Source: Paenibacillus sp. PK3_47
Lineage (GTDB): Bacteria > Bacillota > Bacilli > Paenibacillales > Paenibacillaceae
NCBI RefSeq assembly: GCF_023520895.1
Contig: NZ_CP026029.1
Span: 5,952,001 to 6,016,000, forward strand
Direction: 5' to 3'
Length of the DNA: 64,000 nucleotides
Position 1 is the stretch's first letter; every line of letters starts with the position of its first letter. The notes under the pieces were generated by a model, which saw nothing but the letters and a program-made list of their open reading frames with translations, was not told where the DNA came from and searched no databases. Positions 6,101 to 64,000 of this stretch are shown here, in pieces. The position numbers and the translations under genes were made by a program.

Positions 6101-6350
6101 ATGAACGGGAAAACTCCCGTTGAATTCGCAGGAACCTGGCTTATATGCGAAATGAACGGGAAAACTTCCGTTGAATTCTAGCAAAGCAGCCCCCTTTGCA
6201 AAATCAAAGGTATAAATACCTTTGAATCCGAGGCAATCAGCCACATTAGCAAAATTAAGGGTACAAATACCTTTGAATCCGATGAAATCAGCCACATTAG
6301 CAAAATCAGAGGTATAAGTACCTTTGAATTCACAGAAATCAGTCACCGCA
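6101..6350. repeat. Tandem array, 51-nt period, five hairpin units
   Basis: The hexamer TTGAAT recurs at 6120, 6171, 6222, 6273 and 6324, exactly 51 nt apart. Each unit places a short hairpin just before it. Two units have ACGGGA-AAAC-TCCCGT or a one-base variant; three have a form of AAAGGTATAAATACCTTT (8-bp arms, 2-nt loop). Between hairpins lie about 30 nt such as AATCAGCCACATTAGCAAAA. The design matches the 52-nt arrays at 20.5, 36.7, 54 and 63.9 kb but the sequence differs. Because 51 is a multiple of three, a 99-codon open frame on the minus strand arises by chance. Confidence 0.85.
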
Positions 6351-6757
6351 GCAGAGTTAGCCCAGGTTAGCGAAAAAGGGCCAGTATATTAACCTAATAT
6401 TAGTTTTTCTTAATCTACTTTTCCATTGTCAGATCAACTCCCACCGCTGCTCATAACAATTAAACGTAGGCGGTATGCTTCTTTACAAGTCACCTTTTAA
6501 ACGTTACTCAACCACGCTTCACTTCACCCGGCGTTGATACTCCTTACTGGTTCAGGCAAATCCAACTTTACTCATCTTACCTGCCTTACTGACTTAACCT
6601 TACTCACCTCACCTTACTCACCTCACCTAACTTCCTCGTCTACCCAACACAACTTGTCTACCCTATCTTAACCGCGTTGCACCTAGTCCCTCACTACCGA
6701 TCCACCCTCCAGTTAATGGATTAATATCCCATAAAACTTGCCCATGAGAAAAATAAT
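6351..6757. other. Gene-free intergenic stretch, pyrimidine-rich plus strand
   Basis: No convincing reading frame, RNA gene or terminator was found here. From about 6530 to 6720 the plus strand is strikingly poor in G and made of short recurrences of CTTACTCACC and CTCACCTAAC-like words, a low-complexity tract. Confidence 0.5.
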
Positions 6758-12087: not shown

Positions 12088-12265
12088 TATAATACAGTAC
12101 AACGTGGTATATGATTATATAAAGATGTATACATTAAAAAAGAGCAAGGATGTTCGCGCATCCTCACTCTTACAACAGTCCGCTTTTAAGGGCGGCAGCT
12201 TAGAACTTAGGGCTACCAGAAAGAATAGACCGTTATCCTTTGGACAGGGCGGTCTATTTCTTTTT
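12088..12265 (+). ncRNA. Probable antisense RNA antitoxin for the small toxin gene
   Basis: An extended -10 TGGTATAAT (hexamer 12088-12093) should start a plus-strand RNA near 12100. It would end at a terminator made of AATAGACCG (12224-12232) and CGGTCTATT (12250-12258) followed by TCTTTTT. The RNA of about 165 nt overlaps the 3' end of the toxin gene and all of its 3' untranslated region. This is the arrangement known for txpA/ratA and bsrG/SR4 type I systems. Promoter and terminator are seen; the role is inferred. Confidence 0.6.
12135..12171 (-). terminator. Terminator of the toxin mRNA
   Basis: On the minus strand AAGAGTGAGGATG pairs with CATCCTTGCTCTT (internal mismatch) over a short CGCGAA loop and runs into TTTTTT. 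This closes a toxin transcript that starts near 12395, giving a 3' untranslated region of about 100 nt available for antisense pairing. Confidence 0.7.
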
Positions 12266-12343
12266 GTGGAAAGAGAGTATCAAAATCACCAACGTTGCAA
12301 ATTGAATCATCAACGTCAATGTATCTTTTACTTCCACAGGCAT
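12254..12343 (-). CDS. Small holin-like toxin (type I toxin-antitoxin)
   Basis: 29-residue peptide starting MPVEVKDTLTLMIQFATLV and ending in S-F-H-K-K-K. It has one hydrophobic helix (about residues 9-24) with a charged tail, matching the 'putative holin-like toxin' family, whose members insert in the membrane. GGGAGGTG abuts the ATG at 12343. A GTG at 12337 (27 aa) has the better spacing of 8 nt and may be the true start. An extended -10 promoter lies at 12401-12409. A convergent RNA overlaps its 3' end. Confidence 0.8.
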   Translation of the reverse strand: MPVEVKDTLTLMIQFATLVILILSFHKKK

Positions 12344-12400
12344 CACCTCCCTTCCGGGAGATTAGCCGACCGCCCATATTAGCCATACTGTTGATAATAT

Positions 12401-20463: not shown

Positions 20464-20723
20464 TGGCCCGTTTACCTCTGAAGTAATGCATTATACTCGG
20501 TTTTTCGAGTACAATTGGCCCGTTTACCTCTGAAGTGACGCTATATACTCGGTTTTTCGAGTACAATGGGTTCGTTTACCTCTGAAGTGACGCAATATAC
20601 TCGGTTTTTCGAGTACAATGGGTTCGTTTACCTCTGAAGTGAAGCAATATACTCGATTTTTCGAGTACAATGGGTTCGTTTACCTCCATAGTGTTGTATT
20701 ATACTCGGTTTTTCGAGTACATT
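20464..20723. repeat. 52-nt hairpin array, five units
   Basis: TACTCGGTTTTTCGAGTA or its one-base variant with A in the loop starts at 20494, 20546, 20598, 20650 and 20702, exactly 52 nt apart. The 6-bp stem TACTCG/CGAGTA closes a six-base loop. Between hairpins lie words such as GTTCGTTTACCTCTGAAGTG. The array fills about half of the gap between divergent genes at 20394 (-) and 20946 (+). The rest (20724-20945) holds only the Fur-like site. Confidence 0.9.
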
Positions 20724-36650: not shown

Positions 36651-36680
36651 TGTGGATGTATGGAGAGTGTCAGCGTTCGC

Positions 36681-36945
36681 GAGGGTAAACGAGCCCAATG
36701 TACACGAAAAACCGAGTATAATGTGCCACTGCGAGGGATAGCAAGCCTGATGTACACGAAAAACCGAGTACATTGTGCCACTGCGAGGGCGAACGAGCCC
36801 GATGTACTCGAAAAACCGGGTACATTGGGCCACTGCGAGGGCGAACGAGCCCGATGTACTCGAAAAACCGGGTACATTAGGCCACTGCGAGGGTAAACGA
36901 GCCCAATGTACACGAAAAACCGAGTACATTGTGCCACTGCGAGGC
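36681..36945. repeat. 52-nt hairpin array, five units (inverted orientation)
   Basis: The core TACACGAAAAACCGAGTA or a close variant starts at 36701, 36753, 36805, 36857 and 36909, again every 52 nt. Flanks read GAGGGCGAACGAGCCC and GGCCACTGC. On the minus strand this is the same consensus as the arrays at 20.5 and 63.9 kb. It fills the gap between convergent genes. Confidence 0.9.
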
Positions 36946-52664: not shown

Positions 52665-53825
52665 TTGCATTTCTGTAAACTGACAAAAACCCGACGGACA
52701 TTCATTGTTCTAGCTGCCATCCTGTCTATGTCAACGAATCTTCCGGCTTCTGCGGCAGACACTGCCTATGCGGAAGGACAAGCCGCTCTACCAGCGGTTG
52801 GAGTTACAGGCATTTCCCTCGCTGCGTCAGCGGTGCCTTACGGATTTGAGGCAACGACTTTAAGCATCGACGGCAAAAAGCTGAATATACTGGCATACCA
52901 TGCTGATCACACCCTTATGGTCCAACTGGTGCCTGTTGCCAAAGCCATGGGTTACACGGTTGATTATAATGCGAAGACCGGTGATCTCACACTAAAGAAG
53001 CCGAGGCGTGTAATCAAGATGGTTCTTAATTACAGCGAATACAACCTGAACGGTATTACCTCATCCGCCAAAACCCCGTTTATCCGCGGCAATTCAACCT
53101 ATCTGCCGCTGCGCCAGCTTGCTGATCTGTCCGGATACACGATTGTCCAGCAGGGCAGATCTGAGTTCAAGCTGACTGAACGTTCCGAAAATGATGTAAC
53201 CATTTCTGCCTCTGAGGAATTGGCGGTTGATACGGAGCCGTATTCTTTTTCATTCCATTATCCGGTTCTCTCCGCATACGCGAACAAGGAAGCTATGGAC
53301 AAAATCAACCTGTTTCTGAAAGAGACTGCGGAGAAGTGGAAAACAGATGCGGAACAGGAGCTGTCTGAGGCCTGGGCGGCTCATCCTAATAAAGACCGGA
53401 TTATAGATTACGCCCATATGTATCCTTATGGTTTTCAGGCGCAGTGGAAGGTTGCCTACAATGAGGAAGGCATGCTCAGTCTTTATGCCGATACCTATCA
53501 ATATATGGGGGGCACAGAACCTGACCGGCTGCTCCGCCACAGCTGGACCTTTGATCTGAACAGCGGACAAGCGCTGACGCTGCTTGAGGCCTCCGGCAAT
53601 TCACCGGATTATGCTGTGAAGATTAATCAGTATGTAAATCTGAAAATTGCTTCCGGAGAGGTGAACAGCACCCCGCCGGCACAGTTTCCGGGGATAGAAA
53701 CGGCTGGGACAGGCTGGTATGTCAAAGACGGAAAGATCATGGTGTATGTCCAGCCGGAGCCGGGTGCTTTTTTGAAAAATGAGGTGTTTGAAGTTTCTGT
53801 TCCGATTTCCCGGATTGCAGAGTGA
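52665..53825 (+). CDS. Secreted protein: copper-amine-oxidase-N stalk plus DUF3298/RsiV-like domain
   Basis: About 386 aa from TTG 52665, which has GGGGG 8 nt upstream; an ATG at 52650 has no site. A signal peptide (TFIVLAAILSMSTNLPASAA) directs export. Residues about 65-165 form the beta-rich stalk domain found in many Paenibacillus cell-surface proteins (VPVAKAMGYTVDYN, GNSTYLPLRQLADLSGY). The last 190 residues resemble DUF4163/DUF3298 (ADTYQYMGGTEPDRLLRHSWTF), known from anti-sigma factor RsiV. The role is unknown, probably at the cell wall. Confidence 0.82.
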   Translation: MHFCKLTKTRRTFIVLAAILSMSTNLPASAADTAYAEGQAALPAVGVTGISLAASAVPYGFEATTLSIDGKKLNILAYHADHTLMVQLVPVAKAMGYTVDYNAKTGDLTLKKPRRVIKMVLNYSEYNLNGITSSAKTPFIRGNSTYLPLRQLADLSGYTIVQQGRSEFKLTERSENDVTISASEELAVDTEPYSFSFHYPVLSAYANKEAMDKINLFLKETAEKWKTDAEQELSEAWAAHPNKDRIIDYAHMYPYGFQAQWKVAYNEEGMLSLYADTYQYMGGTEPDRLLRHSWTFDLNSGQALTLLEASGNSPDYAVKINQYVNLKIASGEVNSTPPAQFPGIETAGTGWYVKDGKIMVYVQPEPGAFLKNEVFEVSVPISRIAE

Positions 53826-53865: not shown

Positions 53866-53906
53866 AAAAAAGCTGTCTTGGTCCCCGGACTTTAGACGGC
53901 TTTTTG
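53866..53906 (+). terminator. Terminator after the secreted protein gene
   Basis: AAAAAGCTGTCT pairs with AGACGGCTTTTT (one G-U) over 15 nt, ending in TTTTTG. Confidence 0.8.
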
Positions 53907-53982
53907 TTGTACCGAACCAGGCCAGTATTGCCCGCCAAGTTGGAGCAGTTCGTTAATACGGCGGACAATGTGTTTAAGAGCG

Positions 53983-55022
53983 AGCGATCCCGTTGTAGGT
54001 GAAAAACCGAGTACATTGGGCTAACATGACGGTATGAGGACCGAATGTACACGAAAAACCGAGTACAATGCGCTACTTTGAGGGTAAACGGACCAAATGA
54101 ACACGAAAAATCGAGTCCAATGCGCCACTTTGATGGGAGACGGACCGAATGAACACGAAAAACTGAGTACAATGCGCCACTTTGATGGTAATCGGACCGA
54201 ATGTACACGAAAAACCGAGTCCAATGCGCCACTTTGATGGTAAACGGACCGAATGTACATGAAAAACTGAGTATAATAGGCCACTTTGATGGTAAACGGA
54301 ACAAATGTACACGAAAAACCGAGTACAATGCGTCACTTTGAGGGGAGACGGACCAAATGAACACGAAAAATCGAGTCCAATGCGCCACTTTGATGGGAGA
54401 CGGACCGAATGTACATGAAAAATCGAGTCCAATGTGCCACTTTGAGGGGAGAAGGACCAAATGTACATGAAAAACCGAGTCCAATGCGCCACTTTGAGGG
54501 TAAACGGACCAAATGAACACGAAAAACTGAGTCCAATGCGCCACTTTGCTGGTAAACGGACCAAATGAACACGAAAAACCGAGTCCAATGTGCCACTTTG
54601 AGGGGAGACGGACCAAATGAACGCGAAAAACCGAGTCCAATGAGTCACTTAGAGGGGAGACGGACCGAACGTACACGAAAAACCGAGTCCAATACGCCAC
54701 TTTGAGGGTGGACGGACCGAATGTACACGAAAAAGCGAGTACAATGCGTCACGTTGATGCTATACGAACCAAATGTACACGAAAAACTGAGTCCAATGCG
54801 TCACTTTGAGGGGAGACGGACCAAATGAACACGAAAAACCGAGTCCAATACGCCTCTTTGAGGGTAAACGGACCGAATGTACATGAAAAACCGAGTCCAA
54901 TGCGCCACTTTGATGGTAATCGGACCAAATGAACACGAAAAACCGAGTCCAATGCGCCACTTTGAGGGTAGATGGACCGAATGTATATGAAAAATCGAGT
55001 ACAATAAACCTCCGTGATGGTA
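53983..55022. repeat. 52-nt hairpin array, 20 units
   Basis: GAAAAACC or a one-base variant starts at 54001 and then every 52 nt up to 54989: 20 units and no insertion or deletion. A typical unit is ACACGAAAAACCGAGT, then CCAATGCGCCACTTTGA, GGGTAAACGGACC and AAATGA or AAATGT. Units differ at a few positions. All three minus frames stay open only because the unit lacks stop codons in any phase. It is followed by four CCCAA copies (55046-55070). The remainder to 55324 has no gene. Confidence 0.92.
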
Positions 55023-55324
55023 AAAGGCCCTGCGAAGATAAGCACCCCCCAACCCAACCCAACCCAACCCACTATCTACTTTAATCCACCCTTAAGTAAA
55101 CCGGCAGTTCCTATACAGCCAGGTGACTCAACAGAGCAGTCTATTCCTCTTAAGGTTTTATTATCCAATTACTTGCATTTAAAGTATGTACTCTTGTTGA
55201 GTACCAAAAAATAGCAATAAAAAATCAATCAAAAATGTAATGTATATGTCAACTATGTAGAAAAACACAAATAATATGGCAAATAATTCGTAATAAAAAC
55301 GAAGACTTTGCAGTTTTATTGTAA

Positions 55325-55415: not shown

Positions 55416-56099
55416 ATGCAAATAACAGCAGCACCTTACACTTGGCCTTATGACGGAGCCATTGATCCGGCGAAGACGGCACTGATGATTATCGACATGC
55501 AGACCGATTTTTGCGGCAAAGGCGGTTACGTGGAGAGAATGGGATATGACCTCTCTTTAACAGCAAGAGCCATCCAGCCGATTCAGCGGCTGCTGGCACG
55601 CATCCGTGAGATTGAGGGATTTACCGTCATTCACACCCGTGAAGGACACAAACCTGATCTTTCCGATCTGCCGGCGAATAAACGGTGGCGCAGCAAGCAA
55701 ATCGGTGCCGAAATCGGCTCGGAAGGACCGGCGGGACGTATTCTTGTCCGGGGCGAGCGCGGCTGGCAGATTATTGATGAACTGGCCCCTATACCGGGAG
55801 AGTATATTATCGACAAGCCGGGCAAAGGCAGCTTTTATGCTACAGACCTGGATTTGGTTCTTAAAAATAAAGGCATTACCCATTTGATTCTTACCGGAAT
55901 CACAACCGATGTCTGTGTACACACAACGATGAGGGAAGCCAATGACCGAGGGTATGAATGCCTGATTCTGGAGGATTGCACGGGAGCTACCGATCCTGCC
56001 AATCACCTGGCGGCGCTGAATATGGTCAAAATGCAGGGCGGCGTTTTCGGCAGTGTAAGCAATTCGGAATCAGTGCTGGCGGCACTTGCACAACTCTAA
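55416..56099 (+). CDS. biuH: Biuret amidohydrolase (cysteine hydrolase)
   Basis: 227 aa, AGGAGGGG upstream of the ATG. Isochorismatase-like fold with the triad Asp27 ([11 protein letters not shown]), Lys134 ([10 protein letters not shown]) and Cys167 ([10 protein letters not shown]). The segment [12 protein letters not shown] and the loop [16 protein letters not shown] match what I recall of Rhizobium BiuH. It hydrolyses biuret to allophanate and ammonia in the cytoplasm. Enzymes for the steps before and after are in the same operon (58716 and 61928), which makes the assignment firm. Confidence 0.9.
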
Positions 56100-63794: not shown

Positions 63795-64000
63795 CTCCTT
63801 TACCCTCGTGGCAGCACAATGTACTCGATTTTTCGTGTACAAATGGCCCGTTTACCCTCGTGGCGGATCAATGTACTCGATTTTTCGTGTACAATTGGCC
63901 CGGTTGCCCTCGTGGCGGATCAATGTACTCGATTTTTCGTGTACAATTGGCCCGGTTGCCCTCGTGACGGATCAATGTACTCGATTTTTCGCGTACAATC
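63795..64000. repeat. 52-nt hairpin array, four units, runs off the window
   Basis: GTACTCGATTTTTCGTGTAC or a one-base variant starts at 63821, 63873, 63925 and 63977, 52 nt apart. Flanks read GGCCCGTTTACCCTCGTGGC. It follows the operon terminator and continues past base 64000. Confidence 0.9.

Follow-up and report, generated by a model that had tools for sequence, protein, structure and literature searches.

In the genome of Paenibacillus sp. PK3_47 (coded G000), a window of 64,000 nucleotides, corresponding to positions 5952001-6016000 of a single 6,806,831-base contig, contains a tandem array of 20 units of 52 bp (53981..55020, +). The reading we moderately favour is that this array is one member of a repeat family that spans the chromosome, is polarised with respect to replication and is tied to a dedicated Vsr/DUF559-like protein. 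The gene to its left (52728..53825, +) encodes copper amine oxidase N-terminal and PdaC domains, and its stop codon lies ~160-170 bp before the array. A terminator-like hairpin followed by a T-run was read by eye 3' of this gene (53868..53910, +), and a gene of the isochorismatase family (55416..56099, +) lies 412 bp past the last hairpin. These features agree with a preliminary description of the window, which had placed the array between two same-direction genes and after a terminator. Additionally, a CAACC-type run of short direct repeats was observed near the end of the array (~55047-55070).

The array was delimited with Tandem Repeats Finder (TRF) and a unit listing. On the window, TRF reported 54001-55005 with a period of 52, 19.3 copies, 85% matches, 0% indels and a score of 1315. 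All 19 spacings between units are 52 bp and the units differ by substitutions only, confirming the 20 units, strict period and absence of indels first described. The claim that a core recurs at 54001+52n holds for the word GAAAAA, which is invariant (20/20 units), but not for the full octamer GAAAAACC, intact in 11/20 units by eye count, with TC, CT or GC 3' of the A-run in the others. Linker columns are alike across units, in line with the reported lack of CRISPR-like unique spacers, and a CRISPR identity was rejected on the same ground. A coding repeat appears unlikely: the reverse strand is long-open in all three frames, yet a 52-bp period is not divisible by three.

The hairpin described in each unit does exist, but in a degraded form. 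In 8 of the 18 inner units A replaces T in the left arm, and in 13 of them C replaces A in the right arm; the consensus core hairpin of the array reaches -0.2 kcal/mol, compared with -10.3 kcal/mol in the best arrays of the family. The array is one of dozens in this genome and its hairpin is among the weakest of the family. Its AAAAA strand is the leading strand and its stem-flanking bases are of the A/A type detailed below; a lead-oriented A/A array with such weak hairpins is perhaps an ageing copy.

A dispersed intergenic repeat family

The family core, searched with up to 3 mismatches, gave 470 matches genome-wide (228 on the + strand and 242 on the - strand), and a reversed-pattern control gave 1, so the array is not a product of chance. 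Related arrays are present in other, separately assembled genomes, which speaks against the assembly artefact considered in the preliminary description. The genome was sampled by 80 tiles and 14 array regions. Within the fetched arrays, family spacings below 60 bp were 52 bp in 226 of 255 cases, 51 in 23, 50 in 5 and 53 in 1. The tiles and the window together held 115 tandem arrays of period 18-120, including 19 of period 51, 13 of period 52 (one counted twice through tile overlap), 1 of period 50 and 0 of period 53. By eye, the 51-bp consensus units are hairpins of different sequence, most of which were sorted by core searches into two types. GGTA-core clusters, single-match clusters excluded, comprised 9 lead and 4 lag, and were counted neither way because the near-perfect palindrome leaves the strand unsure. 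CGGGA-core clusters numbered 15, two of them at one locus and some overlapping GGTA-core loci.

The unit can be written approximately as C..A[A/T]TGTAC[T/A/G]CG-AAAAA-N-CGAGTACA[A/T]TG.G plus a linker, with outer bases that often lengthen the stem; its counterpart in a relative, G007, is TGTATGCG...CGAATACA. The preliminary description had raised a structured RNA and a covariation check. In 87 sampled units, compensatory change was slight, with 22 cells compared with 13.5 in shuffles (3/500 shuffles as high), and came mainly from one C-G to T-A event. G-T and A-C stem mismatches were about equal in number. The slight compensatory change and this equality favour a DNA rather than an RNA feature. 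A transcribed array of structured RNA, acting as a 3' UTR (untranslated region) element or a sponge, would fit the hairpins formed by the units and the many arrays downstream of genes. It is nevertheless very improbable, given the mismatch pattern, the scarcity of compensatory change in the sampled units, six arrays that lie antisense to both neighbours in relatives, and the lack of any Rfam family matching the arrays in the whole window and one related locus.

Placement relative to genes was determined with our own simple gene caller rather than annotation. None of the 92 arrays from four genomes overlaps a predicted gene. Of the 89 with both neighbours called, convergent gaps hold 35 and divergent gaps 4; as background, this genome has 744 gaps >100 bp, of which 94 are convergent and 173 are divergent.

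The distribution of the family was assessed in 100 genomes of the genus, with one genome per species. At least five array matches to the family model were found in 24 genomes, one match in two and none in 74, these counts being lower bounds with at most 58 candidates scored per genome. Units resemble each other more inside one array than across arrays, and most compared array positions are not common to different genomes. The position beside the partner gene introduced below is conserved in four genomes, and one further pair of arrays, in G000 and G063, has both neighbours alike. With blastn, no flanking sequence common to different arrays of this genome was detected; in G007, flanking modules are common to most arrays. 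Many arrays of G007 (L143-L160) and G109 were observed embedded in a larger dispersed repeat. Its 5' and 3' modules are conserved, and the 3' consensus ends, by eye, as a terminator-like hairpin.

Outside Paenibacillaceae, the loci L031, L033, L035, L036 and L044 each carry a single core without an array. Two of them, L031 and L044, from metagenome-assembled genomes of Aquimarina and Saprospiraceae, show a lone, very long and near-perfect hairpin with the same 20-bp core, possibly by chance or as part of another element. A phage or plasmid origin of the array was rejected, with no match in either collection (BLAST with low-complexity filter), and a pattern scan of viral contigs returned 4 single-site matches.

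Arrays are aligned with the replication fork

The dnaA gene was placed in 14 genomes. In G000, GC skew agrees with dnaA at 2.69 Mb and sets the terminus at ~6.43 Mb. Among fetched arrays, the AAAAA strand is the leading strand in 20/20 for G063, 21/22 for G087 and 18/19 for G007; the last figure uses a terminus set by eye at 4.1 Mb, and becomes 17/19 with a terminus exactly opposite dnaA, where array 4102667 flips. Listed positions, covering genomes other than G109, G110 and G113, gave 27/27 for G063, 31/32 for G087 and, among the matches listed, 13/14 for G095. Furthermore, arrays between same-strand genes in G007, G063 and G087 are lead-oriented in 36/36 cases, and six of these lie between two lagging-strand genes (6/6 lead-oriented, in two genomes). 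Gene direction was therefore rejected as the cause of the polarity.

The arrays of G000 display this alignment in two bases beside the hairpin, one 5' of TGTAC and one 3' of GTACA. These are A/A in 108 of 147 units of lead arrays and T/T in 100 of 144 units of lag arrays. Total variation between lead and lag units is 0.71 and 0.61 at the two flanking columns and at most 0.37 at every other column. In whole-genome pattern searches, A/A loci were 18 lead and 5 lag, and T/T loci, among the matches listed, were 2 lead and 21 lag (p=3e-6), with the A/A count from all 93 matches, the T/T count from 100 of 121 (none beyond 5.94 Mb), and array 2155168 present in both lists. When restricted to newly placed loci, outside the arrays fetched earlier, the counts were 6 lead and 3 lag for A/A and 1 and 11 for T/T (p=0.016). 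In 39 of the 46 loci, the fork-running strand carries A and A, a stem mismatch, whichever way the loop points. Elsewhere, T/T sites are rare (6/23 genomes). Judged by eye against dnaA, in genomes other than the drafts G064 and G116, the T/T loci comprise one lag each in G110 and G093, one lead unit in G063, and three loci in G111 (a lag, a lead and a third close to the terminus).

Such a pattern could also arise from orientation-dependent stability alone, in which hairpin arrays presenting T.T on the lagging-strand template would be lost more often, those presenting A.A would survive, and the associated gene would be an accidental passenger. This would account for a switch with fork direction at exactly the two stem-flanking bases and for the persistence of arrays in one orientation. 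We regard it as improbable, since the pairing of gene and array (47 of 64 loci in the two closest protein groups) and their co-occurrence across genomes, both described in the next section, would be left unexplained.

The partner protein and its clade-specific arrays

Comparison of array flanks identified one gene that recurs beside arrays in all four genomes compared. In G000 it occupies genome positions 5741836-5742516, ~210 kb ahead of the window, encodes 227 aa and is immediately adjacent to another array. The protein is predicted to combine a PD-(D/E)XK catalytic domain of Vsr/DUF559-like fold with a C-terminal winged helix; VIA-align rows cover the nuclease domain much less than residues 148-227. 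The best DUF559 score in the family, from one paralogue, was 19.4 bits against a cut-off of 20.6, and no curated family cut-off was passed. Pfam gave the partner protein no Cas or Nop match. No match was found in the phage collection and a single one in the plasmid collection, on a 2.7 Mb replicon. A defence system was rejected as an identity, two family members having no PADLOC match. At one locus of G087 (L223, 556-1836), a transposase-like open frame, of IS256 type by eye only, was observed among the arrays around the partner gene.

Close orthologues (at least 71% identity, or a fragment at 74% or more) were found, among the matches listed, in 23 of the 24 array-rich genomes and in 3 of the 76 others (p=2e-18, without phylogeny correction). 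Homologues of any kind (E 0.001) occur in 82/100 genus genomes, and profile homologues (E 1e-10) in 106/149 genomes of the order. We compared 75 homologue loci, divided into 43 of group A (at least 60% identity), 21 of group B (43-50%) and 11 of group C (35-40%). A tandem array lies within 300 bp of the homologue in 29/43 group A, 18/21 group B and 0/11 group C loci. Only periods of 51 and 52 were found beside homologues in a search from 48 to 56, with clade-specific unit sequences, and downstream arrays within 300 bp start -1 to 87 bp from the stop codon. As a yardstick, arrays of 49-54 bp lie up to 150 bp from the stop side of 26 of 1216 predicted tile genes, nearly all from these same families. 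Beside one group A homologue (L257), a second tandem array of 41 bp was observed on the other side (1017-1422).

The similarity of the units follows protein identity, with a Mantel value of 0.69 overall (0/999 permutations), 0.67 within group A (0/999) and 0.31 within group B (1/999). Even between clades with unit sequences that have lost all resemblance, the spacing stays at 51-52 bp, which supports the selection on spacing suggested at the outset. A neutral minisatellite, or variable number tandem repeat (VNTR), growing by slippage and spreading by recombination, would fit the greater likeness of units inside arrays than between them. The fork polarity, the two-base switch, the constant period in diverged clades and the partner gene all speak against it, and we give it very little weight.

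Interpretation and other features of the window

Beyond this genome, a broader possibility is an order-wide, so far undescribed protein-repeat class in which each Vsr-like nuclease-winged-helix protein would own a clade-specific hairpin in fork-locked arrays of 51 or 52 bp, read and propagated, or used, by way of the fork; our confidence in this broader reading is evenly balanced. In the reading favoured for this genome, the protein would bind its cognate hairpin on one strand while single-stranded, most likely on the lagging-strand template, and in this genome the A.A mismatch beside the core may provide the strand discrimination. It may then nick or hold the hairpin, with slippage or recombination repair duplicating units and seeding new sites. 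A period of about five helical turns would place adjacent proteins on the same face of the DNA. Selection would remove copies from genes and promoters, and arrays would persist at gene ends for that reason.

Several observations weigh against this interpretation. The gene-array co-occurrence and Mantel tests ignore phylogeny. One genome (G101) has arrays without a close orthologue among the matches listed, and the gene occurs without family-model matches in G062, G023 and G067 (a fragment in the last); a 51-bp array is nonetheless present in G062, and in G023 a contig end truncates the locus. No array lies within 300 bp in 14 of the 43 group A loci. A hairpin search covering 13 of these 14 (all except L240) found between one and three similarly designed hairpins, at most 250 bp away, in six (L258, L265, L267-L269 and L271) and hairpins of different design in two others; the same search gave a hairpin in 2/11 group C and 0/3 array-less group B loci. 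Loop orientation by itself has no fork bias in G000 (16 lead and 15 lag of 31), and the A/A-T/T rule is broken in 7 of 46 loci, with two of the five A/A exceptions (6288454 and 6319730) near the terminus. Additionally, the sole lag array fetched from G007 is A/A. In the protein, the usual PD-(D/E)XK lysine is replaced in 43/43 group A sequences (by M in 41), and it is present in 32/32 of groups B and C. Nuclease activity in group A is uncertain because of this replacement, although D69 is kept in 42/42 group A rows with a residue there and E82 and H89 in 43/43.

The main rival is a host role, in which the arrays would be chromosomal sites with fork polarity that serve in nucleoid organisation, in fork pausing or in replication-transcription conflict, with the protein as a resident DNA-binding factor, perhaps without nuclease activity in group A. 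Polarity along both chromosome arms, the period fixed at 51-52 bp across clades, the replaced lysine, the array position kept beside the partner gene in four genomes and the one G000/G063 pair with like neighbours are consistent with such a role. It nevertheless appears unlikely, given the patchy distribution (74/100 genus genomes without a family-model match), the array positions mostly not shared across genomes, and the selfish appearance of a gene beside its own array with clade-specific repeats. A selfish repeat and a protein-binding repeat, both raised in the preliminary description, are still supported as options.

The nearest working analogy to the favoured reading, a repeat family tied to its own protein, is the REP (repetitive extragenic palindrome) sequence with its RAYT (REP-associated tyrosine transposase) enzyme; the system may be a REP/RAYT-like selfish one built on an unrelated protein. 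REP, BIME and REPIN elements with TnpA_REP are likewise dispersed, extragenic imperfect palindromes with a dedicated DNA-processing enzyme, and the many-copy extragenic palindrome of that kind is found here, with 470 cores and 0/92 arrays overlapping genes. For E. coli REP, PMC8266576 describes strand-specific recognition and a requirement for mismatches in the stem. Unlike in REP/RAYT, the Y1 (HUH) transposase PF01797 was not found in 11 of the 24 array-rich genomes, G000 included (it is present in the other 13 and in 43/76 other genomes), and by column frequencies neither GTAG nor CGTC is conserved next to the stem. Further differences are the unrelated protein fold and the long direct tandem arrays, whose period is fixed at 51-52 bp. 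Membership in REP/RAYT was rejected because this genome has no Y1 gene and a GTAG foot was not seen.

The single-strand transposons IS200/IS605 recognise hairpins and target the template of the lagging strand (PMC6006769), features that the favoured reading would share; here, in contrast, arrays are abundant where no Y1 gene was found, and blastn detected no shared element ends around the arrays of this genome. The Vsr-like homing endonuclease I-Bth0305I and DUF559-type proteins share the predicted catalytic-domain fold, but the partner protein differs in its fusion to a winged helix, its association with tandem arrays and, in group A, the replaced lysine. MIRU/VNTR loci of mycobacteria are dispersed intergenic tandem units of ~50-100 bp, without the palindrome, fork polarity and partner protein observed here. 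CRISPR and TIGR arrays are also regular arrays of short repeats; unlike in those, the sequence that separates the hairpins is conserved inside an array here.

No description of this repeat family or of its pairing with such a protein was found among the open-access titles and abstracts listed, a scope outside which most subscription journals fall. On this basis, and because the tests for REP/RAYT failed, we count the system as a new kind; a specialist could also place it within the REP kind. If correct, this would be a second, independently evolved counterpart of REP/RAYT in bacteria, with a Vsr-like nuclease fold replacing the HUH transposase. It would also show that the strand of a dispersed repeat family can be locked to replication at the level of two bases in each unit. 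Dozens of natural fork-direction markers would be available per chromosome. Replication-coupled repeat propagation would become directly testable, and cognate protein-hairpin pairs could be compared between clades for specificity.

Three further 52-bp arrays of the same family, overlooked in the preliminary description, were identified in the window: five mostly T/T units in lag orientation (20469..20721, -), five A/T and A/A units in lead orientation (36679..36944, +), and a lag-oriented T/T array (63800..63999, -) of 8 units in total that runs past the window end. The sister family (group B), likewise overlooked, is represented at about 6104..6346 (+) by 51-bp arrays, with two units of CGGGA core and three of GGTA core. 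The likely partner gene of that family lies at genome 4564950-4565618, with its own 51-bp array downstream. Short direct repeats with a 14-bp unit occur near an array end at 6584-6632, and similar repeats were seen by eye 3' of some other arrays in this genome. A BsrG-type RNA (RF01412), from a family associated with type I toxin-antitoxin pairs, was detected at 12145-12394 (-) with 62.8 bits against a gathering threshold of 55.
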